Origin: Acinetobacter sp. 10FS3-1
GTDB taxonomy: Bacteria > Pseudomonadota > Gammaproteobacteria > Pseudomonadales > Moraxellaceae
Length of the DNA stretch: 64,000 nt
NCBI RefSeq assembly: GCF_013343215.1
Contig: NZ_CP039143.1
Coordinates: 124,001-188,000, forward strand
Direction of reading: 5' to 3'
The notes under the pieces were generated by a model. It did not search any database. It saw nothing but the letters and a program-made list of their open reading frames with translations, and was not told the origin of the DNA. The translations under genes and the position numbers were made by a program. Shown here piece by piece: positions 8,563-50,535 of this stretch. Position 1 is the stretch's first letter; the number at the start of each line of letters is the position of its first letter.

Positions 8563-8566
8563 CAAT

Positions 8567-8827: not shown

Positions 8828-8847
8828 TTTTTCTCCCGAAATTTGTT

Positions 8848-17321: not shown

Positions 17322-17912
17322 ATGAATCAAACATCAAATTATTACAATCAGCATGCTCAAGCATTTTTTGAAAATACCTATCAGGTTGAAATGGCAAGTC
17401 TTTACGCACCATTTCTAAGATATTTGCCGGAACAGGCATTGATCCTGGATTTGGGCTGTGGCTCGGGGCGGGACACTTTGGCATTTAAGAAAAAAGGCTA
17501 TCAAGTTGAGGCAATTGATTATTCTGCCGAGCTGGTTGAAAAGGCGAGAGAACTGACAGGCATCAATGTACGTCAGCAAAGTTTTTACGAGCTGAATGAA
17601 GTAGCTAAGTATGATGGTATTTGGGCCTGTGCTTCTCTTTTACACTGTGAAAGAGATCGCCTGACTGAAGTGTTGGGGCGCTTATTTAAAGCATTAAAGC
17701 CAAATGGTGTGTGTTACATGTCTTTTAAATATGGCAATACAGACCGTGAGAAAGAAGGGCGTAGCTTTACTGACTTGAATGAGCAGCAAGCTTACGACTT
17801 ACTCAAACAAATAGATCAGGCTTTACTGTTACAGCAATGGATTACTGTAGATAAACGTCCAGACCGTACAGAAGAGTGGATCAATATCCTGATTAAAAAA
17901 GAGCAGGCTTAG
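17322..17912 (+). CDS. Class I SAM-dependent methyltransferase
   Basis: 196 aa. The SAM-binding motif I is LILDLGCGSGRDTLAFKKKG (residues about 40-60), with acidic motif II VEAIDYSAELV, and later GIWACASLLHC and LFKALKPNGVCYMSFKYG (motif post-I/III). This resembles TehB/UbiE-like small-molecule methyltransferases more than DNA methylases, as no DPPY or PCQ motif is present. It is followed after 2 bp by an HNH nuclease gene, so the two are co-transcribed. Substrate unknown. Confidence 0.85.
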   Translation: MNQTSNYYNQHAQAFFENTYQVEMASLYAPFLRYLPEQALILDLGCGSGRDTLAFKKKGYQVEAIDYSAELVEKARELTGINVRQQSFYELNEVAKYDGIWACASLLHCERDRLTEVLGRLFKALKPNGVCYMSFKYGNTDREKEGRSFTDLNEQQAYDLLKQIDQALLLQQWITVDKRPDRTEEWINILIKKEQA

Positions 17913-17914: not shown

Positions 17915-18964
17915 ATGTTCAGTACAGCTGACATACCAACACCCAACGAGCAGCTGAAATTTTTGAAGCATATTCAGCAGATATTGCATTCTGGGACTTT
18001 TACTTCGACATATAAGTTTGCTTTGCTGATAAGTATCACGCGTCTGGCGATTGAACAGGGGCAAGATACTGGTGCTGCCTTGCATTTAGAATATCAAGAT
18101 ATTGCTGAAAAGTTTATTAACCTATACTGGAAACAGTCACTGCCGTTTCAGTTTAACCAGTATGAGCCTTTTACTATTCATCAAAGCACTGGTAAGCAGG
18201 CAAAGATCATCAGTGAAATCCAGAATGCACAGCAACAATTCAAGACCTTGGCCGCGCTGAGAAAGGAGGTGCTTTACTGGAACAAGCTAAAGCGAACAGT
18301 TGCAACAACGGTTAAGCAAATGCCGGTGGTATATTTGCAGAATCTGAATGGTCAAACCATAGAGTTTCTCTATAGTCTTGAAGATTCCAAGCAGTCCCTC
18401 AACTTGTTGCCCAAGGTGATGTATTGCTTAAGACAATTTAGTGAAATCATTGAAGAGTTGTGCCAGAAGCGCTGGATTGATTTTGTTCGGCTAAACAAGC
18501 AGAACCTGGTGGTACTGGATGGTTTGCCTGACCTAGATGAATTCATGTTTGCTCCAAGTCGTAATCAATTGGGGCAGGTCGCGGACTTCTTAATTGACTT
18601 ACAGCAATGCCAGTGTTTTTACTGTGGAAAAAGTCTCAAAAATTCAAAATATGCCGTGGATCATTTTATTCCATGGTCATTATATCCTGCCGATACCGGA
18701 CATAATTTTGTCCTGGCGGATGAAAAATGCAACTCACAAAAAAGTAATTATTTAGCATCACAGCAATTCTTACATCAGTGGCAGGAACGTAATCATCTGC
18801 ATGATCAATCTATTGTTCGGGAAATTTCCCAATTGGGTTTTTTAACCGATATGCAGCGTTCGCATCGGGTTGCCGACTGGGCATATAAGCAGGCAATAGA
18901 GAATGAGTATTTAGTTTGGTTGGGTGCAAAAGATAAGCAAATTTTTCGATCTATTGGTTTATAA
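17915..18964 (+). CDS. HNH endonuclease domain protein
   Basis: 349 aa. The C-terminal third carries an HNH motif with zinc-knuckle cysteines: QCFYCGKSLKNSKYAVDHFIPWSLYPADTGHNFVLADEKCNSQKSNYL (residues about 231-280). The metal ligands (DH...N...N) look complete. The N-terminal 230 residues are helical and unrecognised, possibly the DNA-recognition part. It is coupled to the preceding methyltransferase gene (2-bp gap), an arrangement that may be a paired functional unit, though the methyltransferase does not look like a DNA methylase. Confidence 0.8.
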   Translation: MFSTADIPTPNEQLKFLKHIQQILHSGTFTSTYKFALLISITRLAIEQGQDTGAALHLEYQDIAEKFINLYWKQSLPFQFNQYEPFTIHQSTGKQAKIISEIQNAQQQFKTLAALRKEVLYWNKLKRTVATTVKQMPVVYLQNLNGQTIEFLYSLEDSKQSLNLLPKVMYCLRQFSEIIEELCQKRWIDFVRLNKQNLVVLDGLPDLDEFMFAPSRNQLGQVADFLIDLQQCQCFYCGKSLKNSKYAVDHFIPWSLYPADTGHNFVLADEKCNSQKSNYLASQQFLHQWQERNHLHDQSIVREISQLGFLTDMQRSHRVADWAYKQAIENEYLVWLGAKDKQIFRSIGL

Positions 18965-18972
18965 GAAAGACC

Positions 18973-20427
18973 TTAGGTCCCTTGGTTATATAGTTTATTG
19001 TAGTTGATGATATCTTGGGTCAATGGAAATTGATCAGGATATAATTTGTACCTTTCAATATATATTTTACGTTTCTGGTCATAAATTTTTTTAATTTGCA
19101 CCAGATCTATATGAAGGAAATCACGTAAATAAATGCTGTTTAAGACTAAGATTGCCAATGCTTTTGAGTTTTTCTGATTTTCTATAGCCATAAGTGTATT
19201 TTCGATATTTTGAAATTTGGTAGAAGACTTATCTAAGTTGTTCTTACCTATTTTTTTTAGCTCATCATAAAAAATAAAATTTAAATCGGGGAAAAAATAA
19301 TGTTTCCATTTTTGTGATGTTAGATATTGACTGTATCTCTGTTCGATGAGTTGAAAGGCTTGCTGTTGCTTTTGTAAGGGTATACTAGCTTGGTGTTTTA
19401 ATTTTTTAATATACGGTAAGTATTGAAGACCAAATTTATCCAGCATTTGTTCCAAACGAAGCTTTTCTTTTTGTAATTCTAACTCTTTGATCTTTTTACC
19501 AAAGCCACCTCCCACTTTTGAACCGATTAATGCGCCGACTCCTGCTCCTATAACACCTCCAATAACTGGCATAAACACAAGACTCCCTAAACCAAGCCCG
19601 ATGGATGCACCAACTTTTGCCATGGTCAGACTCCCTACAGTTTTGGAAGAAAAGTCGATAAGAACGTTCTTATTTATGGAATTTTCGTCTCCACCAGCTT
19701 TTAATAAACGTTGTCTTTCATTGAATGCAGCTATTCCGCTTGCAATAGGCAAATGTAGGTCGAATGAATCTAAGGCAGCATTACCATTTGCCTGTTCTAT
19801 GGTGGAATCAAATTGTTGTGATATATCGGCATGACTCAAATCGTCTAATACCTGTATATTATCTATTCCAATATTTTGATAGGTATCTTCAGGCACTAAA
19901 TAAGTTACATCTGGATGTGCCAAAGCTGTCATTTTAATGCTGTCTATATCTAGAATGGTTTTGATATTTACGAGATCGCCGTCAATTTTTAAGTCCCAGA
20001 CTTCTTGATTGGATGTGCTAGCCCAGACAATTTCATGGGTTTGTCTATCTAACAGATCACTCACTTTTTGTTCACCAATATAACCGATTAGACGATTTCT
20101 AAAGCCTGATAAAGAAGTTTCATCTTTCTCCAACATATTCAACATTAAATAGTTTGAGACATCTAATGCTGAATTTAACTCTTCCTGGCTACTAAAATCG
20201 ACGGCTTTAATTACGCTTGGATCAATACTGTAAACTTGCCATAAATACTCACCGATAGCTAAGCCTGCTGGAAAAAAACCTGAATAATCATTTTTCTGAT
20301 TTTCTGTAGGTAAATGTAAACTTGCACGGATATGCTCACAGCGACTACGATGCATTTTTATCTTTCTTATAAAAATAAAACTGCTATAGCCTAAAATTGT
20401 CACCACGAAAAAAATTAACCAAATCAT
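18973..20427 (-). CDS. Membrane-anchored PD-(D/E)XK-like protein with glycine-zipper region
   Basis: 484 aa. Layout: an N-terminal membrane helix (residues about 2-20); then about residues 110-160 a stretch with the PD-(D/E)XK pattern, YIGEQKVSDLL (E), WASTSNQEVWDLKIDG (D) and LVNIKT (the xK strand); then a Gly/Ala-rich hydrophobic stretch near residues 265-305 (GASIGLGLGSLVFMPVIGGVIGAGVGALIGSKVGGG), typical of glycine-zipper membrane segments; then a helical, Lys/Gln-rich C-terminal region. The inference is a membrane-bound nuclease-like effector. It lies 12 bp after the DUF4407-like gene in the same operon and divergent from the DISARM-like operon. The fold assignment is by motif only and could be wrong. 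Confidence 0.55.
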   Translation of the reverse strand: MIWLIFFVVTILGYSSFIFIRKIKMHRSRCEHIRASLHLPTENQKNDYSGFFPAGLAIGEYLWQVYSIDPSVIKAVDFSSQEELNSALDVSNYLMLNMLEKDETSLSGFRNRLIGYIGEQKVSDLLDRQTHEIVWASTSNQEVWDLKIDGDLVNIKTILDIDSIKMTALAHPDVTYLVPEDTYQNIGIDNIQVLDDLSHADISQQFDSTIEQANGNAALDSFDLHLPIASGIAAFNERQRLLKAGGDENSINKNVLIDFSSKTVGSLTMAKVGASIGLGLGSLVFMPVIGGVIGAGVGALIGSKVGGGFGKKIKELELQKEKLRLEQMLDKFGLQYLPYIKKLKHQASIPLQKQQQAFQLIEQRYSQYLTSQKWKHYFFPDLNFIFYDELKKIGKNNLDKSSTKFQNIENTLMAIENQKNSKALAILVLNSIYLRDFLHIDLVQIKKIYDQKRKIYIERYKLYPDQFPLTQDIINYNKLYNQGT

Positions 20428-20439
20428 ATAAATTTATTC

Positions 20440-22380
20440 TTAAGGTATATACGACGGTACTTGAGTCGAAAGCTGGCTTTTCAGTTTCTCTACCAACATC
20501 GGTATCTCTTCATCATGGTGTGGTTCATATGGCGTATCAATTAAGCCCTCAGCTCCTAATAGCTCCATTTTTCGTGCTTCAATTTTGGAACGAGAAGTAG
20601 AAATAATTTCTAAAGGTTCCTTGAGCTCAGTTAATGTAGCCCTAGTTTTACTTAATTGCTCACGAATACGAGCCATACTTTCTTGAAAATACTTTTGATC
20701 TGTTTCAAAAGTTAGTAATGAAGATTTAATGTTTTTAATATAGGCCTTTTGCTCAACGACCGCAGATTCTGCAGTAGTAAATGCTCGTAGACTTTCAATG
20801 GTATGATTTTCTTCTGGGCGCTGAAGTTTACGTGCTAGGTCTTGCATATCAGATAAATCTGCTTCAGCAATACTAATTCGTTTGTTGCGAGCCTCGATAT
20901 TATCTTCATGGTTCTTATAAGTACGTTCAATATCATGGAGCTCTTCAATTAAGTTTTTCTCATCAATTTCTAGTTGATCTATTTTTTTAGAAAATTTGTT
21001 TAAATATTCTATTTCAGCTTCTTCTACTTCATTTAATGCTTTTAGAATTTGCCCTTCATAAAAAACACGAGCTTTTTCACGCATTTCAATCTCAGCTTTT
21101 TCTTTAGCAAGACGTTCAAAATGAATTTGTTGTGCTTTTTTTAGTTCAGCTTCCACTAATTCTTGGCGTTCTTGTTCCTGTTTAGCTTTAGCCAGTAAAC
21201 GCTCTTCCTCTAACAATTGTTTCTGCTGCTTTTCTCGAGTAATTCTTTCTTTTTCTTGAATCATTAATATTTCTTGTTTTTTCCGTTCACGTTGGTCTTG
21301 AGCATATTGAACCATGATCTCCTCAAATTCTTCAGGAATAGACTGATTAGTTTGTAGAATAAGATCACTGCGTTCCTGTTCTGGCAAGTATTTATCGAAT
21401 GTTCCGAGTTTATATAGCGCCCATTTCTCTTGTAAGCGACTTGAGAAATACATCTGCAAAGTACGAGGTTGCATAAGTTTTGCAGAGATTAATATCGTTC
21501 CGAGAATAATTAAAAAAACATCTACAGCATATTTTGTTTGATTAAAAGCTTTTTGATTTTCAAATTCTTCAATGGCTTGTTGCCTAAATATTGGGCTATC
21601 CTTTGTAATGGTAATCCCATATTTTTTTAACTCTTCTTCATTGCCACGATCTACCGCTTGATCAAATTTGGCTAAAAAACTTTCTCTTTCTATACGAGTT
21701 GATTTTAAATCTGATTGTAATGTTTCTAATTGCCTTTCAATACTTTGAGCAACGTAACCACGACCATATCCAGTGCCACTTTTACCACTGATTTCTACCT
21801 GTAATTTTTCATTAGTATTGTTGACTAACTGTTCAAGTTCCGCAATTTTCTTATCACGATTTTCCAGTCCATTTTTTTTCGCTAGAGCAATATTGTCTTT
21901 GTATTGCTCCATCATTTTATTATCAATATCTGCTTTAAAAACTAATTGAGTTAAAAAAGGTGCAGTAATATATAAAGATAAACAGACAATTCCAATCCTG
22001 ATAGCAAATGGAAAATATTTTGCTATGAATGATTTGATACCCGACCGTGAATAAAAAGGTTCTTTTGTTAATTGCAAACCATTCAAGGTTTTTTCATGTT
22101 CATCTTTTAATAGATCAGCAGATGCCATTGATCGGTCGAAAAACCACATTAGAAGAAAAACGAATCCACCTACGATAGTCCAGCCGACGTAAGGTGAATT
22201 AGGAGTAAAAGTACTACCTAAAAACCCCCATGCGAAACCTTCCGACAAAGCAGCAAGAATCATGATAAATGAAATAACTGTAAGATAAGTCGAACCACCA
22301 CTTGTCAATAAATTTTTATGGTAGGTTTTGAGTGTCAAAAAATCCCAGAATTTAATAAAAATATTTGGTTCTTTATTCAT
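20440..22380 (-). CDS. DUF4407-like coiled-coil membrane protein
   Basis: 646 aa. Three predicted membrane helices lie in the first 140 residues (TYLTVISFIMILAALSEGFAW; VGWTIVGGFVFLLMWFFDRS; FAIRIGIVCLSLYITAPFL), then a long charged coiled coil (residues about 150-280), a fourth helix (YAVDVFLIILGTILISA) and a further 300-residue coiled-coil tail rich in Glu, Lys and Gln. The FDRS motif right after helix 2 is characteristic of DUF4407-type proteins. Such architecture suits a membrane sensor or signal transmitter. It is first gene of a two-gene operon with the PD-(D/E)XK-like gene and is divergent from the DrmA-like gene, separated by 175 bp. Confidence 0.6.
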   Translation of the reverse strand: MNKEPNIFIKFWDFLTLKTYHKNLLTSGGSTYLTVISFIMILAALSEGFAWGFLGSTFTPNSPYVGWTIVGGFVFLLMWFFDRSMASADLLKDEHEKTLNGLQLTKEPFYSRSGIKSFIAKYFPFAIRIGIVCLSLYITAPFLTQLVFKADIDNKMMEQYKDNIALAKKNGLENRDKKIAELEQLVNNTNEKLQVEISGKSGTGYGRGYVAQSIERQLETLQSDLKSTRIERESFLAKFDQAVDRGNEEELKKYGITITKDSPIFRQQAIEEFENQKAFNQTKYAVDVFLIILGTILISAKLMQPRTLQMYFSSRLQEKWALYKLGTFDKYLPEQERSDLILQTNQSIPEEFEEIMVQYAQDQRERKKQEILMIQEKERITREKQQKQLLEEERLLAKAKQEQERQELVEAELKKAQQIHFERLAKEKAEIEMREKARVFYEGQILKALNEVEEAEIEYLNKFSKKIDQLEIDEKNLIEELHDIERTYKNHEDNIEARNKRISIAEADLSDMQDLARKLQRPEENHTIESLRAFTTAESAVVEQKAYIKNIKSSLLTFETDQKYFQESMARIREQLSKTRATLTELKEPLEIISTSRSKIEARKMELLGAEGLIDTPYEPHHDEEIPMLVEKLKSQLSTQVPSYIP

Positions 22381-22555
22381 AATGTGACGTAGTTGGATTT
22401 AATTTGAATAGAAGTGTATCTTATTGTAAGTTTTTTGTGCATTATTGTTTCAATTTAAGTTTGAATTTTTGGTAAAAACTTATAAGAACACTGTAATAAG
22501 TCTATTATAAATAATAATATAGTTAGCTATAAGAATTAGACGGTATTTTAATTTA
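22381..22555. promoter_or_regulatory. Divergent intergenic region between two putative defence operons
   Basis: 175 bp separating two start codons that face away from each other. Very AT-rich, with TATTATAAATAATAATATAG near 22503-22522 as a possible promoter core. Both operons must start here, so co-regulation is plausible. No operator repeat was seen. Confidence 0.4.
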
Positions 22556-25500
22556 ATGGAAGAGTTTAATAAGGCGAGAGCAGAAATAGCTGAATATTTG
22601 AAAACTCAGTTAATGGGCCCTGCAAATGGTGAAGAAGAGAAAATAACAGATGTTCCTCATAAGCGTTATTTGATGGGTATACTTTTTCCTCCAGCAGCTT
22701 GTGTTGATGAAACAGATGAAAGTTCAGGTGAGGACTCCACAACAGAAGCTTTGAGTAATGATTTTAAGCCATCTTCTATGGCTTTTTCTTTTGCTGTCCA
22801 AAAGCATACAAAAGTAAAGTTAAAGATATGCGCGGCTAAGTATGAAAAAAAGGATCAAGATACGGCATGGCAAAGAAAGCCCTTTGAGTATCTTGAAGAG
22901 ATTAAGTTTGAAGAAAACATCAAAAGAAATATATTTGAAGAAAGTGCAAGAGTTGATGTTACTGTTCGACCATATACTAAAGGTACAATGGTTACTATTG
23001 CCCTTTCAAATCAAGAGAAATCTGGTGACCGGTTAAATCCAGCCCAATGTCTATATCAATGTAGTCTTGAAGTGACAGTAGTTGAGGGCGGTATCAAAGA
23101 ATATCCTACGAGTGATCGATTTAAATTAGATGATGAGCAAAAAGAATTAGATTTGATTTATCGTAAACGTGTTCCTTGGGCAGTAGGCCATGGCGTTGCT
23201 GTGGATTGGGAATTAGGTGAATATAAAGTTCCTTTCCTAATTAAAACTGAAGTTATGCCTTTTCATGAGGTTAAAGATTTCAGTACTGAATTGGATACGT
23301 GCAGGTATTCAAGTCTTAATGATGAAATTCTTAGCATTTCAAGAATTGCAGATGAAGGAACGCCTCAAGAAGACTTGCTAGGTGATTATGAAAAATTAAT
23401 TAGTGCATATGATTGTTGGATAGATGAACTTGACAGTGAAAATCTACCTGAGCGTTATAGTGCTGCAAAAGTTAGAGTTATAAATCGATTAAAGATCGCC
23501 TCGCAACGTATGCAAAAAGGTATTGCTTTATTAAGAAGATCAGAAGATGCATTTACGGCATTTCGATTAGCTAATAAAGCCATGCTAATGCAAATGATTC
23601 ATACAAGTAAAAGCTATGCAGGTCAATCTAAGGGAAGAAATTGGGGGTATGTAAAACCTGAATATGATAATGAAGACATAAGAAAAAATTATAAATGGCG
23701 CCCTTTTCAGTTGGCTTTTCAGCTTTTGGTTTTGGAGTCTATGATTCCAGATCCTGATACTAATAAGTTTTCAGACTCCCATGCTGATGTGGATTTGTTA
23801 TGGTTTCCTACTGGTGGCGGAAAGACAGAAGCTTATCTAGCTATTGCAGCTTGGGAAATGATCTACCGTCGCCTTACAGCAGGGAAAAAAGGAGGGGGTA
23901 CTGCAGTAATTAAAAGATACACTCTTCGATTGTTAACTTCCCAGCAATTTCAGCGTGCAGGAACGTTAATTTGCGCTCTCGAAACTTTAAGACAAGAAGA
24001 TAAGCGTTTAGGTAACGAAACATTTTCATTAGGGTTATGGGCAGGTCAAGATAGTACACCGAATGATTATAAAACAGCGTATGAAAAATTTAGTATTGCA
24101 CGTCAGGATCAAGAACCACAAAATATTTTTCAGCTACAATCTTGTCCTTGGTGTGGTACAGAAATCATGCCAAAAACACATGAAGAGGAAAGTTCGGCTT
24201 ATGGGATTAAATGTAATGAATTCGATAATTTTTATTTTTTCTGTCCGAGTTTAGATTGTGAGTTTCATGAGTTATTACCAATCCAAGTAGTTGATGAAGC
24301 GCTTTATAAAAAACCTCCTTCTTTATTGATTGGAACAGTTGATAAATTTGCGCGATTAACATGGAAAGAGAATGCTTATGTTTTTTTTGGTAATGAAAAG
24401 ACTTTGCCTCCCTCTTTAATTATTCAGGATGAACTACATCTCATATCTGGTCCTTTAGGCACTATTGCTGGTATATATGAAGCTGGTTTTGATTCAATTA
24501 TAGAATTACGTGGACAGCCTCCTAAAGTAATAGCAGCAACTGCTACTATTCGAGCAGCTCAGCAACAGTGTCGGCGTATATTTGGCCGTAATGTAAATAT
24601 TTTCCCTCCATCTGGCACAGACCAAGCTGATTCTTTCTTTTCTAAAGAGGAAGAAAATAAACCAGGACGTTTATATGTGGGAGTTATGCCATCAGGTCAT
24701 ACATCCTCTACAGCCTTAGTCCATACAGCTGCTGCGACATTGCAAGCACCAAATGATTTAGGCTTTCAAGATAAGATTCTAGATAGCTATTGGACGCTTC
24801 CAATTTATCATAATAGCCGTAGAGAGCTAGGTAAATCTATGACTTTAGCTCGGGATGATATTCCTGAACGTATTAGGGTAATTGCTAAAGAAGCAAGGAG
24901 AATTGACTGGGTTGAAGAGCTGAGTGCTGGTATAAAAGGTTCAAAAATTCCAGAAGTATTAGCTAACCTGAACAAGTCAGTGCCAAATACAGTAGATGTA
25001 TTGCCATGCACAAACATGATCTCTGTCGGAGTAGATATTGGTCGGTTAGGTATCATGATTGTAGCAGGACAGCCTAAGGCTACAGCTGAATATATACAAG
25101 CCTCAAGTCGTGTAGGGCGTGATAAAAAACGACCACCAGGGGTAGTAATCACACTTTACTCTGCAACGAAACCACGTGACCGGTCTCATTACGAAACTTT
25201 TAAGAGTTATCATCAGGCCCTATATCGTTATGTAGAACCAACAAGTGTGACGCCATGGGCTAAACCAGCACTTGAACGAGCTTTACATGCTGCCTTAATC
25301 GCTGTAGTCAGAGTAAATGGTTATCTTAGAAAAAATGAAAGTGCAAAATTCTTTGATCCAAGCCAAGAACAATTTAAGAGAATACGACAAGTATTTGAAA
25401 AAAGAATTGTATTAGCTATGCAAGGATTATCAGAGTGGGATCAGCAAGAAGTTAAAGACTATTTGCAAGAGTTGATTGATACTTGGGAAATTCGTGTAAA

Positions 25501-25672
25501 TGCGACAGAAAATAAGTTAACCCATTATGAAACACAGCGCGCAGGCAAGCAATTTCAGCCATTGATTCAACCCTTTGAAAAAAATTCTCATAGTGAAGCG
25601 TGGAAAACTTTGAATTCTATGCGTAACGTTGATACAGAAACAAAATTATATATTCGTGGTGAGTTGGAATAA
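22556..25672 (+). CDS. DrmA-like helicase (DISARM-type)
   Basis: 1038 aa. Walker A LWFPTGGGKTEAYLA lies near residue 420, a four-cysteine zinc insertion (CPWCG...C...CPSLDC) near residues 530-560, motif II variant IIQDELHLISGPLG near residue 622, motif III AATATIRAA, and C-terminal lobe motifs ISVGVDIGRLGIMIVAGQPKATAEYIQASSRVGR. The DELH/ISGPLG and QASSRVGR signatures are those of DrmA, the SF2 helicase of DISARM anti-phage systems. The stop overlaps the next start by one base (TAATG). The expected DISARM partner drmC (phospholipase D) is absent from the adjacent operon. Confidence 0.85.
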   Translation: MEEFNKARAEIAEYLKTQLMGPANGEEEKITDVPHKRYLMGILFPPAACVDETDESSGEDSTTEALSNDFKPSSMAFSFAVQKHTKVKLKICAAKYEKKDQDTAWQRKPFEYLEEIKFEENIKRNIFEESARVDVTVRPYTKGTMVTIALSNQEKSGDRLNPAQCLYQCSLEVTVVEGGIKEYPTSDRFKLDDEQKELDLIYRKRVPWAVGHGVAVDWELGEYKVPFLIKTEVMPFHEVKDFSTELDTCRYSSLNDEILSISRIADEGTPQEDLLGDYEKLISAYDCWIDELDSENLPERYSAAKVRVINRLKIASQRMQKGIALLRRSEDAFTAFRLANKAMLMQMIHTSKSYAGQSKGRNWGYVKPEYDNEDIRKNYKWRPFQLAFQLLVLESMIPDPDTNKFSDSHADVDLLWFPTGGGKTEAYLAIAAWEMIYRRLTAGKKGGGTAVIKRYTLRLLTSQQFQRAGTLICALETLRQEDKRLGNETFSLGLWAGQDSTPNDYKTAYEKFSIARQDQEPQNIFQLQSCPWCGTEIMPKTHEEESSAYGIKCNEFDNFYFFCPSLDCEFHELLPIQVVDEALYKKPPSLLIGTVDKFARLTWKENAYVFFGNEKTLPPSLIIQDELHLISGPLGTIAGIYEAGFDSIIELRGQPPKVIAATATIRAAQQQCRRIFGRNVNIFPPSGTDQADSFFSKEEENKPGRLYVGVMPSGHTSSTALVHTAAATLQAPNDLGFQDKILDSYWTLPIYHNSRRELGKSMTLARDDIPERIRVIAKEARRIDWVEELSAGIKGSKIPEVLANLNKSVPNTVDVLPCTNMISVGVDIGRLGIMIVAGQPKATAEYIQASSRVGRDKKRPPGVVITLYSATKPRDRSHYETFKSYHQALYRYVEPTSVTPWAKPALERALHAALIAVVRVNGYLRKNESAKFFDPSQEQFKRIRQVFEKRIVLAMQGLSEWDQQEVKDYLQELIDTWEIRVNATENKLTHYETQRAGKQFQPLIQPFEKNSHSEAWKTLNSMRNVDTETKLYIRGELE

Positions 25673-27459
25673 TGTCATCAAATAATAGAGCATATCGTAG
25701 TTCCCAGTTAATTAGTCCATTTGGTCCTGGTTGTATTATTGAGCTAGGAGAGGAGTCACTAATTTTAGTGGATCCACAGTTATGGCCGAAAAAATTAGAA
25801 GAAATTAAGCTCGATAGATTAACCAAAGAGGCAGGTGTTTGGGCTTTAAAGAAACCACCTGTAATTAAAGGTATATCTGAGAAACTTACAAAAGATAATT
25901 CTTTAATGGCTGTAAGATTTCCTAAATGGATGTTCTGTCCACGTTGTAGAAAATTAGAGCTATGGCGAAAAGATATAGGGAAGACAAACTACGATGGGGT
26001 TCCTGTCTGTTCGAATGAAAAATGCAAAGACAAAGTATTAGTTCCTATGCGGTTCGTTGCAGCTTGTGAACATGGACATTTACGTGATGTTCCTTGGAAC
26101 ATTTGGGCTCATAGAAATAGTAAAGAAAGTTGTTCAAGCCCAGAGTTATATTTTAAATCATCTCCAGAAAAAGGAAGTGGATTGGATGCTCTTTATATTG
26201 AGTGCACAAACCCTAACTGTGGTGCTAAAAATGATCTAAAAAATCTAATGAGCAAAGGAGCTTTAGCTGGAATTAAGTGTTATGGAAATCAGCCTTGGGA
26301 ATATGATAACAAAGAGTGCTCTGAGGAATTAAAGGTGCTGCAACGTGGTGCTAGTAACCTCTATTACTCCATAATCAGATCCGCGCTGGATATTCCATAC
26401 GATGAAGTAAGTGTGGGTAACCCTACATACGATTTAATAAAAAAGTCACAAGATTTTGAAGATTTATTGCGTGCGATAGATCAAAACAGTGATAGAAAAA
26501 TACAAAAATTTGCTGAATGGATTGCAGAAGAGTTTGGGTTAACTGAACAAGAGGTTATTCGTGCAGCTACTAGTCAAGAAAAGGAGCAGAGGACATTTAA
26601 AATACCTCAAGATAAGGATCTTCGAATAGCAGAGTGGGATATATTATCTTCAACAAATATTGAGCAAAAAAAATCTAAAACTTTTAAAGCTGAAATATTA
26701 GAGTGGAATACTCCTATTACTTTTGGGTTTGAAAAAATTATAGATAAAGTAGTACTACTACATAAATTACGTGAAGTAAGAGCATTTTGTGGATTTGAAA
26801 GAATTTCACCTAGTGACAATATTGTTAAACCAGAATCCGCTCAACAATCTTCCTCTTGGTTACCTGCTACAGAAGTTTATGGGGAAGGTATTTTCTTACA
26901 GTTTGATCAAACATACCTTGATGATTGGGAGTCTAATCTTTCTATAGAAATGAAAAAAAGAATCGAGGACTTCCTGAATCGTCACGCTAACGCCTCGTCT
27001 AATTATTTACCTATCCCTACTGCTAAGTTTTTAGTCCTGCATACATTTTCTCATTTACTCATTAGACAACTTAGTTTTGAAAGTGGATATTCGAGCGGCT
27101 CTTTAAGAGAACGTATTTATGCTGATGAGGGGCAAGCAGGGCTTTTAATTTACACTGCAGATGGTGATTCAGAGGGAAGTCTAGGCGGACTAGTGCAACA
27201 AGGTAAATTAAAAACCTTATTGCCATTAATATTAGCCACATTAGAAAACTCTCATTGGTGCTCAAATGACCCGATATGTAGTGAAATGGAAGCTCAAGGA
27301 GTGATGAGTCTCAATAAGGCTGCGTGTCATTCATGTACATTAGTTTCGGAAACAAGTTGTGAACACAATAACTTACTGTTAGATAGGAAAATATTAATAG
27401 ATGAAGAAGAGAAAGGATTTTTCAGTCAGATTCTGATGAAAGCTAGAGAGTTAGACTAA
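25672..27459 (+). CDS. DrmB-like protein (DUF1998)
   Basis: 595 aa. Begins with the typical DrmB opening RSSQLISPFGPGCIIELGEESLIL, has zinc-type cysteines (CPRCRKLELW...CSNEKC; AACEHGHLRDVPW) and ends with the DUF1998 signature LLIYTADGDSEGSLGGLVQQGKL...CSNDPICSE...AACHSCTLVSETSCEHNN. In DISARM, DrmB partners DrmA; the complex blocks incoming phage DNA. It is coupled to drmA by a one-base overlap and followed 1 bp later by a UvrD-like gene, all on one transcript. Confidence 0.88.
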   Translation: MSSNNRAYRSSQLISPFGPGCIIELGEESLILVDPQLWPKKLEEIKLDRLTKEAGVWALKKPPVIKGISEKLTKDNSLMAVRFPKWMFCPRCRKLELWRKDIGKTNYDGVPVCSNEKCKDKVLVPMRFVAACEHGHLRDVPWNIWAHRNSKESCSSPELYFKSSPEKGSGLDALYIECTNPNCGAKNDLKNLMSKGALAGIKCYGNQPWEYDNKECSEELKVLQRGASNLYYSIIRSALDIPYDEVSVGNPTYDLIKKSQDFEDLLRAIDQNSDRKIQKFAEWIAEEFGLTEQEVIRAATSQEKEQRTFKIPQDKDLRIAEWDILSSTNIEQKKSKTFKAEILEWNTPITFGFEKIIDKVVLLHKLREVRAFCGFERISPSDNIVKPESAQQSSSWLPATEVYGEGIFLQFDQTYLDDWESNLSIEMKKRIEDFLNRHANASSNYLPIPTAKFLVLHTFSHLLIRQLSFESGYSSGSLRERIYADEGQAGLLIYTADGDSEGSLGGLVQQGKLKTLLPLILATLENSHWCSNDPICSEMEAQGVMSLNKAACHSCTLVSETSCEHNNLLLDRKILIDEEEKGFFSQILMKARELD

Positions 27460-27460
27460 A

Positions 27461-28828
27461 ATGAGAATGCCTAATGCCCGTGAAATAAGTGAAGAACAAC
27501 AAGACATATTTGAAGAAGCCCCTCTAGAAGGCTGTATATTAGTTTCTGGACCTCCAGGAACAGGCAAGACCGTTATTGCTTTTTTACGTGCACAGCTTAT
27601 AGCTAAGAAGAAAATAGATGTAACGGTATTAATGTTTAATAGAGTATTAAAACGCTATACCGAAAATGTAGCTGAAGATCTTGGAGATTTAGTTGCAACC
27701 AATACTATGCATACTTGGTTTCCAGAGTGGTGGAATAAGCACAAAATTCAAAATCATTCATTTATCTTTCCAATTATTAAAGATAATAAGGTGTATTTAA
27801 ATTGTCCTTATGAAGCGAAGGAAAATATCAAACACCTTGGAGGCAAATGGCAAAGTACTCATCCTTTGACTAATAAAAAGCCAGGAATGTGGTATGTAGA
27901 CAAGACAAAGTATGAGTCCTCACCAGATAGCTATGAACAGTGGTGTAAATCGTATGATCCTCTAAAATTAGATGAATGGAAGTTTGATTGGGGACAAATG
28001 AAGGATATCTATGTTGAGCTAGAAGAAGATAAAATGATTGACTGGGGGCATATTATTATTGATGAAGGCCAAGACTTTGAAGCAGGTTTCTACTCATTTT
28101 TGCATATGGCCAGTAGACAATTAGAAAAGGGCGGGATTACAGTTTTAGCAGATGAAAATCAGCGTTTAGAAGAAGAACATCATTCCAGCCTTCAAGATAT
28201 AAGACAAGCTCTACGCATTGCCAACAAGCCAGAGCGACAGTTTGTATTAAATAAAAATTTCAGAAATACTACAGCGATCGCTAAGCTAGCTGGATATTTT
28301 TATGTAGGATTAGAAACTGGGATACCAGATCTTCCTAATAAAATTGGAGTTAATCCCTTACTCTTGAAAAATATAAATGTTGAAGAACAAATTAAATATA
28401 TTTGTAATACTCTAAAGTTCAGAGGTGCTCTGGAGGTCGGAATTATTGTTGATAATGAATCTGATAGGAAATTATTTTTTGAAGGTCTAACTTCCCAGCT
28501 GACAAACTATAGTGTACAAACTTATACCAGCAGAGATCCTCAACTGAGTAGAAATCTTGTATTTGATAAGCAAGGTATTGTTAGCATTCTAAATCGAAAA
28601 AGCTGTAAGGGTTTAGAATTTGACATGGTATTCGTGCCACAATTACAAAAGATAAAAGTTGATGATTCCAATTTGACAACTTTTAAAATGAATATGTATG
28701 TGATTTGTTCTAGAGCCCGATCAGAACTAGTGTTTATGTGTGATAAAGGAGAGACCGGTTCTCCTGAGATATTAAATCATTTTCCTTCACAAGATTCGCA
28801 ACTAATTGAATATAGAGAGCTAGCTTAA
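27461..28828 (+). CDS. UvrD/DUF2075-like superfamily 1 helicase
   Basis: 455 aa. Walker A SGPPGTGKTVIAFLRAQ at residues about 30-45, motif Ia VLMFNRVLKRY, Walker B IIIDEGQDFEAGF near residue 200, motif III ADENQRL, motif IV FVLNKNFRNT and C-terminal SCKGLEFDMVFVPQL plus NMYVICSRARSELVF (motifs V and VI). Short for UvrD (about 720 aa): it lacks most 1B/2B insertions, so it is probably a DNA-binding NTPase rather than a processive helicase. A DUF2075-like region is possible. It is translationally linked to the DrmB-like gene and overlaps the next start by one base. Confidence 0.8.
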   Translation: MRMPNAREISEEQQDIFEEAPLEGCILVSGPPGTGKTVIAFLRAQLIAKKKIDVTVLMFNRVLKRYTENVAEDLGDLVATNTMHTWFPEWWNKHKIQNHSFIFPIIKDNKVYLNCPYEAKENIKHLGGKWQSTHPLTNKKPGMWYVDKTKYESSPDSYEQWCKSYDPLKLDEWKFDWGQMKDIYVELEEDKMIDWGHIIIDEGQDFEAGFYSFLHMASRQLEKGGITVLADENQRLEEEHHSSLQDIRQALRIANKPERQFVLNKNFRNTTAIAKLAGYFYVGLETGIPDLPNKIGVNPLLLKNINVEEQIKYICNTLKFRGALEVGIIVDNESDRKLFFEGLTSQLTNYSVQTYTSRDPQLSRNLVFDKQGIVSILNRKSCKGLEFDMVFVPQLQKIKVDDSNLTTFKMNMYVICSRARSELVFMCDKGETGSPEILNHFPSQDSQLIEYRELA

Positions 28829-30291
28829 TGGAACCACTCTTAAATTCTTCTTCATACATTCTAGTACCCAAAAAAAATTTCGTTCGTTATGCATTGCCAT
28901 ATGAAGTATTACCGACATTTATGTGTTGTGAAGTTAATCAGAAAAAAGTATTTGATAAAGAAATAGCAAAAAGCTTATTTTCTCAAGAATCAGTAGCGAA
29001 TGAAAATCTTATTTTAGAAGTGAATACTGAAGATAATGATGAATATATTTCATTTTCAAATATCAAAAAAGTTTACTTTTCTAACCAAGAAAATTTAGAT
29101 TTATTTTTAGAAAGAAGTTATGAAAATTATGATGTAAATTCTCTTGATTGTTATATTCTTGCTTTAGGTGGAAATGATATTAATACAAAAGTCGATATTA
29201 TATATCCTTCAAAAATTAATAAAAGTCTTTTCACTAGGAAAATGGCACTAAGAGATTCTGTTATTGGATTAATTTATGAAAAATTAAAAAACAATACTAA
29301 TTTGCAATATTTTTTTGGATTATTGAAAAGTCCAATAAAATTAAATGAAATAATAAATTTATTATTTGATTCTGATTTAAATAAAAGTATAGAAAAAGAA
29401 ATTCAGATAGATTTTTTTAAAATATGTTCAGAATATAATTTAACAGAAGGATGGAATCCTATTAATATTGTTTCTGATTTTGAAAATAAAATAAGTGAAA
29501 ATATTAAAACAAGTAGTGAATTTCAGGCATGGGTTTTGACTGTTAAGAAAATTATTAATGGAGATAATGTTAATATAGTTTTTGATGATAATGGTAATAT
29601 TACATTGAGGGCTATGACTCTAGTTCTACTTAATCCAGAAATATTTCAACTTGAAAGTATTAAAAATAATTCTAATTTTGTAATAGGTGATAATGTATAT
29701 AAACTTGCACTAAAATTTTTGAAAGCAAGATTGGGATATAGTTATTTAAGTGCTGACGATAGAATGTTAGTAGGTGAAAATCGAGAGTTACTTCAAGATA
29801 TTATTTCCTATGTCTATAATTTGGACGAGACAAGTTGTGATAATTATCTTTCTGATAAGATAGAAATTAAAAATACTAATCAAGATAAACAATTTAATAT
29901 TTTAAAACATGGATGGTTGAAAACTGTCTCTGAAGATCAGTTTAAGATAATCTTCAGTATAAAGGGTATTAAACCAATAGCTGGTTTTAGTTTGGACTTA
30001 ATATATGAAAAGGAAGAAAAACTTTTATTAAGAATAATTGATCGTAATTCACCTAAAGGTATGACTAAATTTAAGGGGCAACTTGCTCTAAATATAATTG
30101 AATTACAAAAGGATTTGCCAGATAATTCACGATTTGAAGTTAATGACCAAGGTTTAGTTTTAATACTTCCTTTATTATGGATTAATGAAATAAATTTAAG
30201 TAATCATTTGAAAGAAGTATTTGATATTCTTAAGCCATTAGCTATTGCTCAAAAATCAAGTAAGTTAATAGATGATGTTTTGATTTCATAA
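28828..30291 (+). CDS. Unrecognised protein ending the DISARM-like operon
   Basis: 487 aa, no family recognised. Base composition is strikingly more AT-rich than its three operon partners (long runs of AAT, ATT and AAA codons). The protein is rich in Asn, Ile, Lys and Asp, with no membrane helix, P-loop or cysteine cluster visible. The N-terminus (SSYILVPKKNFVRYALPYEVLP) and a segment LALKFLKARLGYSYLSADDRML look structured. The one-base overlap with the UvrD-like gene shows it is the fourth cistron. It could be a specificity or effector subunit. Confidence 0.6.
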   Translation: MEPLLNSSSYILVPKKNFVRYALPYEVLPTFMCCEVNQKKVFDKEIAKSLFSQESVANENLILEVNTEDNDEYISFSNIKKVYFSNQENLDLFLERSYENYDVNSLDCYILALGGNDINTKVDIIYPSKINKSLFTRKMALRDSVIGLIYEKLKNNTNLQYFFGLLKSPIKLNEIINLLFDSDLNKSIEKEIQIDFFKICSEYNLTEGWNPINIVSDFENKISENIKTSSEFQAWVLTVKKIINGDNVNIVFDDNGNITLRAMTLVLLNPEIFQLESIKNNSNFVIGDNVYKLALKFLKARLGYSYLSADDRMLVGENRELLQDIISYVYNLDETSCDNYLSDKIEIKNTNQDKQFNILKHGWLKTVSEDQFKIIFSIKGIKPIAGFSLDLIYEKEEKLLLRIIDRNSPKGMTKFKGQLALNIIELQKDLPDNSRFEVNDQGLVLILPLLWINEINLSNHLKEVFDILKPLAIAQKSSKLIDDVLIS

Positions 30292-32473: not shown

Positions 32474-32547
32474 GACCGCAGTATGCCTGAGGTCATGAGA
32501 AGAATGAAATAGAACGTTTGGAGAATAGCAGAATGGAACAGCCTGGT

Positions 32548-36103: not shown

Positions 36104-36106
36104 TGG

Positions 36107-37236: not shown

Positions 37237-37692
37237 GTGAAAAGTATGGTAGATATTGTCGATGTTTCTACCCGAAGTCGTATGATGGCGGGTATCAAAG
37301 GACGGAATACGAAACCCGAGATACTAATCCGAAAATTACTACATAAAAAAGGATTCCGCTTTCGTCTTCATGTAAAGAATCTACCAGGTAAACCAGATAT
37401 CGTTCTGCCTAAATACAAGGCTGTGATTTTTGTAAATGGATGTTTTTGGCATGGTCATAAGGGTTGCCGTCTTTTTAAATTACCCGCCACCAGAACTGAA
37501 TTCTGGCAGGAAAAAATAATAAAGAATCAAGCTAATGACAGTAAATCAATAAATTTATTGTTAGAGAATGGCTGGAGAGTAGGTATTGTCTGGGAATGTA
37601 GTATTAGAGGTGCGACCAAAGATCCAGATAGGGTAATCAATATTATTTCCGAATGGTTAATGAGTGAAAGCTCTTTTATTGAAGTAATTTAA
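37237..37692 (+). CDS. vsr: Very short patch repair endonuclease (Vsr)
   Basis: 151 aa, full length for Vsr. Conserved blocks: TRSRMMAGIKGRNTKPEILIRKLLHKKGFRFRLHVKNLPGKPDIVLPKYKAVIFVNGCFWHGHKGC and TEFWQEKI. Vsr nicks next to T:G mismatches that arise by deamination of 5-methylcytosine. It lies convergent with the cytosine methyltransferase gene, as expected of a partner. Start is GTG at 37237; an ATG four codons in is possible. Confidence 0.93.
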   Translation: MKSMVDIVDVSTRSRMMAGIKGRNTKPEILIRKLLHKKGFRFRLHVKNLPGKPDIVLPKYKAVIFVNGCFWHGHKGCRLFKLPATRTEFWQEKIIKNQANDSKSINLLLENGWRVGIVWECSIRGATKDPDRVINIISEWLMSESSFIEVI

Positions 37693-37767: not shown

Positions 37768-39330
37768 TTATAAATCGCTATAATGTTTTTTTAACAATGA
37801 GAAAACAATTGTACTGATCTGTCGAGCAAGAAATGGAGGTACAGCATTTCCGACCTGCGTATACTGATTAGTACGGTTTCCTTCAAATATATAATTGTCG
37901 GGGAATGTTTGTAATCTTGCTGCTTCCCTTACAGTGAGACTTCGACACTGCTTTGGATCATAATGAATGAAATAATGACCATCTTTTGAAATATGGCTTG
38001 TTATTGTAGTGGCTTCCTTATGAGCAAGCTGCACACGAAAACGGTCATTATAAGACCCAGAATTCCAGTTCTGGTGTTGTGGAGCAAGCTTAGTCGGGAA
38101 ATTTTCAGCTTTAGGTGAGAACCCTCTCTGTTCACCATATAATGCACAAAAACTGTATCTGAGCAGATCTGACTCCATATGTCCTCTTGTCTCATGATTG
38201 AGAACTAGATTCAGTTCAGGATCAAGAATCCATTTCCTCAAATGATCTGGCAACTGGTTCGATGATTTATATTTATGAATAGTTTCTTTTCTTTTTAAAT
38301 CTTTATATGGTTGGAGATCTGTTTTATTAACATCAACACCAATATTATTTAATGCGCTTAATGTCTCGGCATTACTTGATACAACTTGCTGCCAAGAATA
38401 ATAAGAATCATCTTTTTTTGATAACCCGCTTCGTAGTTTTGGTAAATCACCAATAGCCTCTTTAACTGAAACTTTAGGATAAATATTTTTATCCAAGATA
38501 TCAGGTATATGTTCAATATCCTCCCTCACTCCAAGCAGAATAACTCGGTGTCGAGCTTGAGGAATCCCGAATTCTTCGGATTTAATCAGGTAGTTCAGCT
38601 TGACTGGAGTAGAGTTATCAGCATCATCAGTTTTTTCCACAAGAGAATATATTCGATATGAAGGGCAATCTTCTGATCCCGTAATCTCTGAAGGATTTTG
38701 CAGGTCATTAAGAATTTGAGGAAATATGAGTTGATTCTCAACTTTGGCAGTAAGAATCCCTCTCACATTTTCCATAACAAACACATCAGGTTTTGCTATC
38801 GATAGAACCTTTAAATATTCTTTATAAAGGAAGTGGCGGTGATCTTCTTCAGGAACATAGTTTTTATTGCCGGCATTTCTAGAACGCCCAGCTAAACTAT
38901 AGGCTTGGCAAGGGGGACCTCCGATTAAAATTTTAGGTCCGTAATGATTTTCTGTTAGCTCTTTTACTTTAGCATGAATGTGGTCATTATCTTTACCTAA
39001 TTCAGAAGGACCTTTCAAGGTTTCCTGAAAAGCTGATTCATAAATTTCTTTATATGATTCAAACAGTTCATCTCTTGTAAGGTTGCCATTTAAATATTGA
39101 TAGTAACCATCTAGACAGCCTGTTTGCTTTGCAAGTCTGTAAAACGCTCTTGTAGTTAGTGTCATATGAGCATGTGGATCTTTTTCAACAGACATGCCTA
39201 TTTTAAAAGGATGCTTGTTATTATCTATGTAAGAGGCGAATCCTTCGCCGAGTCCACCTGGCCCAGAGAATAGATCAATTACTAAAATATCATTATCTTT
39301 CATAGTAGCCTGATAACTTAAAAAACACAT
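37768..39330 (-). CDS. dcm: DNA cytosine-5 methyltransferase
   Basis: 520 aa. All key m5C motifs are present: DLFSGPGGLGEGF (I), GGPPCQAYSLAGRSR with the catalytic Cys (IV), MENVRGIL (VI), QARHRVILLGVR (VIII), and RSLTVREAARLQTFPDNY...QVGNAVPP (IX-X). Start is either the ATG at 39330 or the ATG at 39303; the latter begins right before motif I and may be the true one. It belongs with Vsr and, by known clusters of MutL-like ATPases with Z1 and AIPR proteins, with the downstream genes at 41.6-47.1 kb. Target sequence cannot be read off. Confidence 0.92.
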   Translation of the reverse strand: MCFLSYQATMKDNDILVIDLFSGPGGLGEGFASYIDNNKHPFKIGMSVEKDPHAHMTLTTRAFYRLAKQTGCLDGYYQYLNGNLTRDELFESYKEIYESAFQETLKGPSELGKDNDHIHAKVKELTENHYGPKILIGGPPCQAYSLAGRSRNAGNKNYVPEEDHRHFLYKEYLKVLSIAKPDVFVMENVRGILTAKVENQLIFPQILNDLQNPSEITGSEDCPSYRIYSLVEKTDDADNSTPVKLNYLIKSEEFGIPQARHRVILLGVREDIEHIPDILDKNIYPKVSVKEAIGDLPKLRSGLSKKDDSYYSWQQVVSSNAETLSALNNIGVDVNKTDLQPYKDLKRKETIHKYKSSNQLPDHLRKWILDPELNLVLNHETRGHMESDLLRYSFCALYGEQRGFSPKAENFPTKLAPQHQNWNSGSYNDRFRVQLAHKEATTITSHISKDGHYFIHYDPKQCRSLTVREAARLQTFPDNYIFEGNRTNQYTQVGNAVPPFLARQISTIVFSLLKKHYSDL

Positions 39331-49109: not shown

Positions 49110-49361
49110 TTATGAGTGAGCTAGGCTCATTAACCGGAAACGGGCCTGTTGAGCCAAGTCATCGTAATGAGCTTGCCCTTCATCCAGCATTCGCTGTAGC
49201 CAGAGTCTTAATGCTTGGTGATCATCGAAGCATTTATTGATTTCCAGCAAAAAGGCCAGATTGTGCAGTTTGGGAATGTGTAACTCTTGAATGAGTTCAC
49301 GCGCGACCATATCTGCTTCTGGGCTAACGACTACGCCACCAAAGAAAGCTTTACTGTTCAT
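49110..49361 (-). CDS. Hypothetical small protein
   Basis: 83 aa from the ATG at 49361, preceded by GGAG 7 nt upstream; a TTG at 49367 is less likely. The start overlaps the integrase stop region by 11 bp. Sequence MNSKAFFGGVVVSPEADMVARELIQELHIPKLHNLAFLLEINKCFDDHQALRLWLQRMLDEGQ is helical; no family recognised. It sits between the integrase and the replication genes. Confidence 0.65.
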   Translation of the reverse strand: MNSKAFFGGVVVSPEADMVARELIQELHIPKLHNLAFLLEINKCFDDHQALRLWLQRMLDEGQAHYDDLAQQARFRLMSLAHS

Positions 49362-50535
49362 GGGCAAGCTCCTCTGTATTTAGTCTCTCCAGCATGGCTT
49401 CAAAAGCACTACCATCGCGGCGCGTAACATTGGGGATGTAACGGCTATAGACCCGGAATAGCATTTCAGTCGTTGAATGTCCCAGCTGGCGTGCGATCCA
49501 TTCCGGGTTCTCGCCTGCAGATAACCATAATGTTGCAGCGGTATGACGTGTTTGATAAGCACGTCGGGGCTTAAGCCCTAAAAAGCGTAGTAGGGGATGC
49601 CAGACACGCTTGTTAATAAGGCGATAATCGAGAGGCCCACCATCACGATTGCAGAAAACAAAACTGGATTTACCATTATTTAAGCTTTTCTGTTGCAGAA
49701 AGGCCTGATAAACCCGATCACTCATTTGGATGGTGCGGTCAGAACCATAAGTTTTGGTTCCACCAAGCTCTCCATTTACTAATGCTTCACGAATGTGGAT
49801 TTCCCGACGTTGTAAGTCCACATTTTTCCATTGCAATCCATCGATCTCACTGGTGCGCATACCTGTGAAAAATCGAACAGTGTAATAGGGCTTAAAATCA
49901 TCACGAACTGTGGCTAAAATTGCATGTACTTCCTTTAATGAAAAAGGCGTGACTTCAATTTTCCCTTGCTTTAAGTTCTTGATATTCTTATAAGGACTGT
50001 CAAAGTCATATCGTTCGGCAGCACTATCGAGTATCATACGAAGTGCTATCATAATCTGGTTGATTCTTGATGGTGAAAGGCATTCTTGGTTTTTCCCGTG
50101 AGTCACTTTGGCGAGGGATGAACGGAATCCAAGAATGTCTGACTTTTTGATATTAATAACCGGAATTGTGCCAAAAAAAGGAATTAAGTACTTTCTGATC
50201 ACAATTTGAATTTTTTCCTTGTAGCTTGTACGCCATTCTATTTCTTTATCAGTGAACCAGATTTCACAGAACTTAGAAAATAGAGGTGTTTTTGAGCTGA
50301 TTTCATTTACTCTGTTTTCTGCATTTTTGATTTCTTTCAAACGAGAACTTTTTGGAAAGTATTTAGCATAGTCAAAAATACCCAATAAGATTTCTGCCTC
50401 CATTCGTTCAATCGCTTTTTCAAGCTTTTTTCGATTTTGAGCATTGTCTTCAAGAGCGGTGGTTTCACGGCAACGGATACTTAAGTATCGAAAATCGACA
50501 CATAACTTACCGTATCTAGTACGAATAGCAGCCAT
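49351..50535 (-). CDS. int: Tyrosine site-specific integrase
   Basis: 394 aa, phage-integrase size. An N-terminal Arm/SAM-like region, then catalytic residues: RFFTGMRTSEIDGLQW (R), GGTKTYGSDRTI (K), QTRHTAATLWL (H-x-x-R equivalent: Q/R..H context), WIARQLGHST (H) and MLFRVYSRYIP (Y nucleophile). This is a P2/P4-like island integrase. It lies 1 kb from two tRNA-Gly genes, the likely target. It is encoded 13 bp downstream of an excisionase-like gene. Confidence 0.92.
   Translation of the reverse strand: MAAIRTRYGKLCVDFRYLSIRCRETTALEDNAQNRKKLEKAIERMEAEILLGIFDYAKYFPKSSRLKEIKNAENRVNEISSKTPLFSKFCEIWFTDKEIEWRTSYKEKIQIVIRKYLIPFFGTIPVINIKKSDILGFRSSLAKVTHGKNQECLSPSRINQIMIALRMILDSAAERYDFDSPYKNIKNLKQGKIEVTPFSLKEVHAILATVRDDFKPYYTVRFFTGMRTSEIDGLQWKNVDLQRREIHIREALVNGELGGTKTYGSDRTIQMSDRVYQAFLQQKSLNNGKSSFVFCNRDGGPLDYRLINKRVWHPLLRFLGLKPRRAYQTRHTAATLWLSAGENPEWIARQLGHSTTEMLFRVYSRYIPNVTRRDGSAFEAMLERLNTEELAHEQ

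Follow-up and report, generated by a model that had tools for sequence, protein, structure and literature searches.

A probable DISARM-like system of DrmA, DrmB, an SF1 helicase, and protein X in Acinetobacter, beside a DUF4407 gene pair that probably moves separately

In Acinetobacter sp. 10FS3-1 (contig NZ_CP039143.1, positions 124,001 to 188,000; this whole stretch of 64,000 nucleotides is called the window below), the plus-strand operon drmA-drmB-SF1-X probably constitutes one DISARM-like defense system distinct from class 1 DISARM, and the minus-strand gene pair that faces it, encoding a DUF4407 protein and a partner, is best read as a separate mobile cassette lying alongside. The slot of DrmC appears to be taken by a superfamily 1 (SF1) helicase, followed by a protein referred to here as X. 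Judged from sequence comparison, the arrangement appears to be a previously undescribed DISARM branch that spans several phyla.

The locus comprises six open reading frames (ORFs), two on the minus strand and four on the plus strand, around a 175-bp divergent gap, just as the original prediction had it. The four genes of the plus strand are the following.

22556..25672, plus strand: drmA, a YprA/DrmA-type superfamily 2 (SF2) helicase of 1038 amino acids (aa)
25672..27459, plus strand: drmB, a DUF1998/MZB zinc protein of 595 aa, adjoining drmA
27461..28828, plus strand: SF1, an SF1 (UvrD-like) helicase of 455 aa
28828..30291, plus strand: X, the fourth gene, 487 aa, 24% GC

One-base overlaps had been proposed throughout this operon. 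They are present at two of the three junctions, drmA/drmB and SF1/X, and drmB and SF1 are separated by a one-base gap. The names given to the first three proteins were borne out by profile searches. DrmA matched the PADLOC DrmA profile with 678 bits and the NCBIfam DrmAS model with 913 bits, slightly under the model cut-off of 950, and it carries a Walker A motif (GGGKT) at residue 420, DELH at 625, and QASSRVGR at 848. DrmB scored above the cut-offs of NCBIfam NF038324 (465 bits, cut-off 240) and Pfam MZB (37.7 bits, cut-off 24.2). The helicase exceeded the cut-offs of AAA_19 (37.3 bits, cut-off 25.1) and UvrD-helicase (24.9 bits, cut-off 23) and has the SF1 motifs in place; an insert at residues 110 to 161 resembles DUF5710 at 24.1 bits, under the cut-off of 26.5. 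X is, as expected, an AT-rich protein without a family: its GC content of 24% compares with 34 to 38% for the other five ORFs, and nothing in Pfam, PADLOC, or NCBIfam matched it at an E value of 0.1. The reading frames of SF1 and X are intact. Neither DrmC nor DrmE was among the PADLOC matches listed for the nine ORFs scanned between 15055 and 30291, and Pfam found no phospholipase D (PLD) domain there. By Pfam and PADLOC, the operon contains no DrmD and no PglX-like DrmMI, nor any of the ARMADA type II parts sought (BrxHII-like helicase, PglX-like methylase, RelE-SF1 fusion).

The same gene order recurs widely. An alignment scan of genome contigs gave 198 confirmed relatives of SF1, and the best 80 of these plus four of six plasmid records made up a set of 84 loci; the phmmer counts for this set take each gene by its best-scoring label only (E value of 1e-5). 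DrmA, DrmB, and SF1 occurred together in 66 of the 84, always in the tandem order DrmA-DrmB-SF1 (66/66). The next slot held an X-type protein in 28 of the 66 loci by blastp clustering, in agreement with the earlier proposal that SF1 and X belong with DrmAB as a variant system; X is divergent, and phmmer with the X of the window alone found it in 7 of the 66, the remoter members being linked by hhalign. The 66 loci come from eight named phyla, namely Actinomycetota (34), Pseudomonadota (20), and Planctomycetota, Chlorobiota, Verrucomicrobiota, Bacteroidota, Lentisphaerota, and Myxococcota (one each); six records carry no phylum name in the tally. Copies were also found on plasmids of Photobacterium, Deinococcus, and Streptomyces.

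The usual partner DrmC had been thought to be missing beside drmA and drmB. This held at the locus itself and in its relatives: DrmC was detected by phmmer in 0 of the 66 loci, and the same queries detected it in three others (L158, L159, and L160). DrmD was present in 4 and DrmMI in 3 of the 66. A NERD nuclease-helicase was found in 35 loci, directly upstream of drmA in 28 of them. The large sigma-70-like protein of locus L006 (positions 884-4705; PADLOC MzaA, 135 bits) or a relative was likewise found in 35, mostly upstream of drmA. The sub-branch to which the window belongs (Photobacterium, Shewanella, Marinobacterium, Amphritea, and L167, introduced below) has neither. A provisional DrmE label for proteins of L098, L099, and L101 was dropped as evidence; its queries had been picked by position, and PADLOC was blank on L098.

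A sample of Pseudomonadota was also chosen independently of SF1. Fifteen of its 398 genomes had a DrmA-like match, one being the window's own, and the other 14 regions were read. Five were class 1-like by DrmD and DrmMI (three with DrmC), two were NERD-DrmAB, one was UvrD-DrmAB-NERD, three held remote relatives, two held fragments only, and one, L167, had SF1 in the order DrmA-DrmB-SF1-X-methyltransferase. In a first DrmA tree of 67 rows, from which 21 loci were omitted by name (near-copies, cut loci, and L001, which is the window), all 50 SF1 rows fell on one side of a single branch with a Shimodaira-Hasegawa-like approximate likelihood ratio test (SH-aLRT) support of 96. In a second tree of 70 rows, which included 12 DrmAs of the sample and omitted 30 loci by name as well as L163 and L171, all 42 SF1 rows again fell on one side of one branch (SH-aLRT 92). 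The DrmA of L167 lies inside the SF1 group, and all 11 placeable sample DrmAs without SF1 lie outside it. The DrmAs of SF1 loci are grouped apart from those of class 1 DISARM; neither tree contains a certain class 2 DrmA.

The minus-strand pair and the gap that separates it from drmA have the following layout.

18973..20427, minus strand: DUF4407 partner, 484 aa, with an N-terminal hydrophobic segment, a candidate nuclease-like motif, and a glycine-zipper segment (below cut-off)
20440..22380, minus strand: DUF4407 protein, 646 aa, membrane/coiled-coil, with hydrophobic segments
22381..22555, no strand assigned: divergent intergenic region, 175 bp

The original prediction coupled this pair to DrmAB as a membrane effector, and the neighborhood survey argues otherwise. 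We searched 175 genomes of the genus for the pair and for SF1. Some match to the DUF4407 partner was found in 51, and it was full-length in four (G000, G427, G452, and G031); the next-best match covered positions 44 to 383 with 98 bits. SF1 was present at high score in two of these four, G000 and G427, and elsewhere in the genus only as matches of 59 to 60 bits in three further genomes, confined to positions 193 to 428. G427 carries the same locus, with 99.2% DNA identity to the window over a 13,034-base contig that contains the sequence of L007 letter for letter; G000 and G427 therefore represent in effect one lineage. L007 is also the only one of the 66 DrmA-DrmB-SF1 loci to contain the pair.

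In G452, the pair sits in a block that corresponds to positions 18645 to 22503 of the window (96.8% identity over 3,861 columns). Besides the pair, this block takes in the final 320 bp of an HNH endonuclease gene and 123 bp of the 175-bp intergenic region (22381-22503); positions 22504 to 22555 are not shared, and the block thus ends 52 bp short of drmA in window coordinates. No match to DrmA, DrmB, SF1, or X was found within 18 kb around the pair, and in the rest of this genome, where SF1 was the sole query, there was no SF1 match either. The G452 pair (L133, positions 5464-10855) is flanked by two copies of a gene for a 248-aa IstB/DnaA-like ATPase, which share 93% and 89% identity with parts of the window at 47.6 to 50.2 kb, suggesting how cargo may be exchanged in the tRNA-Gly island; beyond these copies lies a type III restriction-modification locus. 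The pair of G031 is 34 to 36% identical, its neighbors appear from their translations to be housekeeping genes, and that genome gave no SF1 match. The pair and the DrmAB operon thus represent independent cargoes that rarely co-occur. The co-occurrence of 1 in 66 and the copies in G452 and G031, genomes with no SF1 match, argue against the coupling, and the pair, as far as sequence can tell, probably lies outside the DrmAB system and moves separately.

The DUF4407 protein itself was correctly named (Pfam PF14362, 39.6 bits, cut-off 31.3). The PD-(D/E)XK nuclease proposed for its partner found no support: Pfam, PADLOC, and NCBIfam gave no nuclease profile, the AlphaFold model is poor (mean predicted local distance difference test score of 62.5, residues 131 to 232 under 50), and hhalign found no match to NERD nucleases, two sets of which find each other at 99.7%. 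A pattern conserved without change across 22 homologues, E119...D145...N154-x-K156, hints at compatibility with the PD-(D/E)XK fold; E or Q is usual in that motif where the partner has N. Proteins of about 715 to 750 aa in about 12 genomes of the genus (L135 5688-7835, L136 6244-8391, and others) share the middle of the partner, positions 44 to 383 at best. A sigma-70-like promoter was sought at 22250 to 22700, and none was found as opposed to 2.6 expected. DUF4407 had no match in plasmids and, in 369 genomes of the class, four matches besides the window's own, all of 18 to 27 bits. The available excerpts of literature naming DUF4407 contained nothing concerning defense. Separating the pair from DrmAB removes a wrong lead and leaves it as a candidate in its own right.

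Several observations weigh against the reading of drmA-drmB-SF1-X as one DISARM-like system. The loci were collected by a search with SF1, so that 66/84 is a rate among SF1 relatives and not among DrmAs, and Actinomycetota make up 34 of the 66. Of the 18 remaining loci, 14 gave no DrmA or DrmB match at the thresholds applied, L025 has hardly any DNA upstream, and L045, L077, and L078 are similar but cut off or fused; contigs shorter than 6.2 kb account for five of the 18. Support in the second tree, 92, is under the level that the tool marks with a star. The DrmE test on relatives was weak, with queries chosen by position and no PADLOC recognition of L098. A 5-methylcytosine (5mC) methyltransferase was found in 25 of the 66 SF1 loci; of the 17 comparison loci, 5 had one (including the locus from which a query was taken), as did 4 of the 14 regions in the sample. 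It is not clearly enriched near SF1 loci and was rejected as a fixed partner. The ADP-ribose assignments of X consist of sub-threshold and middling matches, and DrmAB-type helicases could act in repair, like MrfAB/YprA.

Protein X may contain three domains: a degenerate N-terminal region resembling ADP-ribosyltransferases (ART-like), a helical region at about 136 to 337 resembling ADP-ribosylhydrolases and ADP-ribosylglycohydrolases (ARH/ARG-like), and a C-terminal region at about 354 to 473 resembling type III secretion system (T3SS)/YbjN-type chaperones. These hints of ADP-ribose-related and chaperone-like folds come from matches that all lie below significance. In hhalign, X did not match ARG significantly, and the same ARG stretch was picked by four of six X profiles. 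The Pfam family PF22546 (2CompART) did not match the X of the window at an E value of 1; it scored 24.0 bits on the relative in L031 and 23.0 bits on that in L046, both under the cut-off of 27. A 2CompART search of 398 genomes gave 0 matches, a null that is uninformative since the controls were also blank. Comparison of X with PDB sequences yielded release-factor matches only (E value of 0.2 or worse), and Foldseek found nothing under an E value of 0.1 in PDB and BFVD. Homologues of about 480 aa, 33 to 57% identical, occur in Acinetobacter indicus, A. bohemicus, A. gyllenbergii, Vibrio, and Aeromonas (P0031, P0039, P0044, and others).

In class 1 DISARM, DrmAB binds single-stranded DNA and 5' overhangs, an autoinhibitory trigger loop opens, and ATPase activity is required (PMC9142583); the trigger loop is described as a class 1 feature (PMC12458937). 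We infer an anti-phage role for drmA-drmB-SF1-X as well. DrmAB would bind single-stranded or 5'-overhang phage DNA and become activated, as is known for class 1. The SF1 motor might then extend or clear the single strand, or DrmAB might load SF1. X, with its possible ADP-ribose-related and chaperone-like domains and its catalysis seemingly lost here, could serve as a sensor or adaptor. The DNA would finally be destroyed or blocked by the stalled helicase complex itself or by host nucleases. In about half of the relatives, a nearby NERD nuclease-helicase, mostly just upstream of drmA, could act at this last step instead; the sub-branch of the window has none.

A role for X as an active enzyme or sensor of ADP-ribose, through which the system would read or reverse phage ADP-ribosylation with DrmAB as the effector, is unlikely; the matches described above point toward such folds, and X appears to be catalytically degenerate. 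A broader proposal, which we also consider unlikely, is a third widespread class of DISARM, composed of DrmAB, SF1, and an ADP-ribose-handling sensor and licensed by phage ADP-ribosylation rather than by base methylation. If true, X, with pseudo-ART, ARG-like, and secretion-type chaperone-like domains, would tie a helicase complex that senses DNA ends to phage ADP-ribosylation.

Another explanation involves a methyltransferase gene downstream of the operon, listed here with its neighbor.

37237..37692, plus strand: Vsr mismatch endonuclease, Pfam Vsr 104.7 bits, adjoining the methyltransferase
37768..39330, minus strand: C5-cytosine methyltransferase, best PADLOC model DrmMII, 336 bits

The locus could be a decayed class 2 DISARM that lost DrmC and DrmE to insertion elements, with SF1 and X as bystanders and the product of 37768-39330 as its methyltransferase. 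The DrmMII score favors this, as do relatives of the methyltransferase that lie directly after X in L167 (56% identical) and in convergent orientation in L031 (50% identical). The gene lies 7.5 kb from X with insertion elements between, and the scanned ORFs of 90 aa or more from X to Vsr are all transposon- or intron-like. A short DDE transposase ORF and IS66 genes lie in the interval from 30483 to 36668, as does a group II intron reverse transcriptase flanked on both sides by transposase ORFs (HTH_Tnp_1, integrase core). However, 66 loci from several phyla share the order DrmA-DrmB-SF1, and DrmC was detected in none of them, which argues that this composition is old and not a product of local decay; SF1 and X also retain intact frames. 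We regard decay from class 2 as distinctly unlikely, and the methyltransferase as a possible, unproven modification partner.

Nor is drmA-drmB-SF1-X likely to serve DNA repair as a module like MrfAB/YprA; we consider this very improbable. SF1 helicases are common in repair. DrmA and DrmB also share a helicase plus DUF1998 architecture with MrfA (PMC12458937). However, the distribution is patchy, with high-score SF1 in two of the 175 genomes searched in the genus; the island around the operon is linked to tRNA genes and also holds insertion elements and MZA-like genes; plasmids of three genera carry copies; and the best-scoring models are DrmA models. Least credible of all is a single six-gene system that couples DrmAB detection to a membrane effector made of DUF4407 and a PD-(D/E)XK-like partner. 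The divergent arrangement, present in G000 and G427 and so in effect in one lineage, speaks for it; against it, the pair is found in 1 of 66 loci and in two genomes without an SF1 match, and the nuclease domain found no support in profiles, model, or hhalign.

Further genes of the window surround the putative DISARM-like operon and the DUF4407 pair.

17322..17912, plus strand: small S-adenosylmethionine (SAM) methyltransferase, by Pfam, adjoining the HNH gene
17915..18964, plus strand: HNH endonuclease, Pfam HNH_4 32.3 bits (cut-off 22), last 320 bp in the block shared with G452
49351..50535, minus strand: tyrosine integrase of the element, with a homologue in the G452 element that carries the pair, near the same tRNA-Gly genes

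In L030 (1348-3107) and L031 (15103-17234), relatives of both the small methyltransferase and the HNH protein lie near DrmAB-SF1-X, on different sides. As partners of the operon they were rejected, with an HNH relative in 3 and a methyltransferase relative in 5 of the 66 loci, the near-identical L007 counted; they could form a separate two-gene system. The integrase, the ATPase gene, and the tRNA-Gly genes at 47.6 to 51.7 kb belong to the window's own element and have counterparts in that of G452, and no clear pair of att repeats was found at 47000 to 52500. MZA-like genes occupy 41640-47097 (MzaB-like, 239 bits; MzaC-like, 258 bits; MzaE/AIPR-like, 235 bits). The MzaC-like protein, 441 aa, covers part of a 952-position model, and the ORF 44621-45553 (310 aa), between the MzaC-like and MzaE-like genes, shares 86% identity with the transposase at 39464-40396. 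The MZA-like set looks interrupted by an insertion element. At 844-7034, a DpdE/ZorD-like SNF2 helicase is flanked by two HipA-like genes, one on each strand; this protein (2593-5940, 1115 aa; PADLOC DpdE 709 bits, DrmD 134) is encoded about 17 kb from the operon. Three overlapping minus-strand genes at 9610-15738 look like a multi-gene recombinase unit; their products have 1065, 769, and 227 aa, and an integrase domain is present in the first, the other two matching no Pfam family.

The available excerpts of the related literature (PMC12458937, PMC9142583, PMC9503650, PMC9252829, PMC10952713, PMC10270631, and PMC11090510) contained no description of DrmA-DrmB-SF1-X. The tree of PMC12458937 holds many uncharacterized DISARM-like classes, so that the branch may already be there unnamed. 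Among known systems, the ARG-centric systems with TY-chaperones (PMC9503650) share with X a hinted ARG-like fold and secretion-chaperone-like domain; they differ in that X appears catalytically degenerate, DISARM has 0 occurrences in the available text of that paper, and the evidence for the likeness is weak. The NERD/UvrD DrmAB loci (L091 of Azospirillum, L094 and L107 of Rhizobium, and L165 of G819) likewise combine DrmA-DrmB with SF1-type and NERD helicases, with no DrmC found, but their long UvrD lies upstream, the NERD-helicase lies downstream, and their DrmA falls outside the SF1 group. The Azospirillum locus, on a plasmid, has the order UvrD-DrmA-DrmB-NERD helicase at 5171-15406, and the gene after these encodes a DarT ADP-ribosyltransferase (Pfam, 43.9 bits); DrmC was not found in it. 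ARMADA type II (PMC12458937, a preprint) also combines a YprA-family helicase and a GajB/UvrD-like helicase in one operon, and is set apart by its BrxHII-like helicase, PglX-like methylase, RelE-fused SF1, and YprA with a C-terminal nuclease.

Published accounts of DISARM itself give it DrmA, DrmB, DrmC, and a methyltransferase (PMC9142583, PMC10270631). Class 2 (DrmMII-DrmE-DrmA-DrmB-DrmC) shares DrmA and DrmB with the window, which also has a DrmMII-like 5mC methyltransferase 7.5 kb off, but the operon is without DrmC or a methyltransferase, and no DrmE was among the matches listed for the nine ORFs. Class 1 (DrmD-DrmMI-DrmA-DrmB-DrmC) likewise has adjacent DrmA and DrmB genes and occurs on islands and plasmids; the operon differs in lacking DrmC, DrmD, and a PglX-like DrmMI, in carrying SF1 and X instead, and in having its DrmA on another branch. 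The detection rules of PADLOC for DISARM types I and II require DrmC (PMC9252829) and would call drmA-drmB-SF1-X neither. How DISARM stops phages, with DrmC seemingly dispensable, is presented as an open point (PMC9142583, PMC10270631), and a branch that keeps DrmAB without detectable DrmC would offer a direct test of which parts of DISARM do the work.

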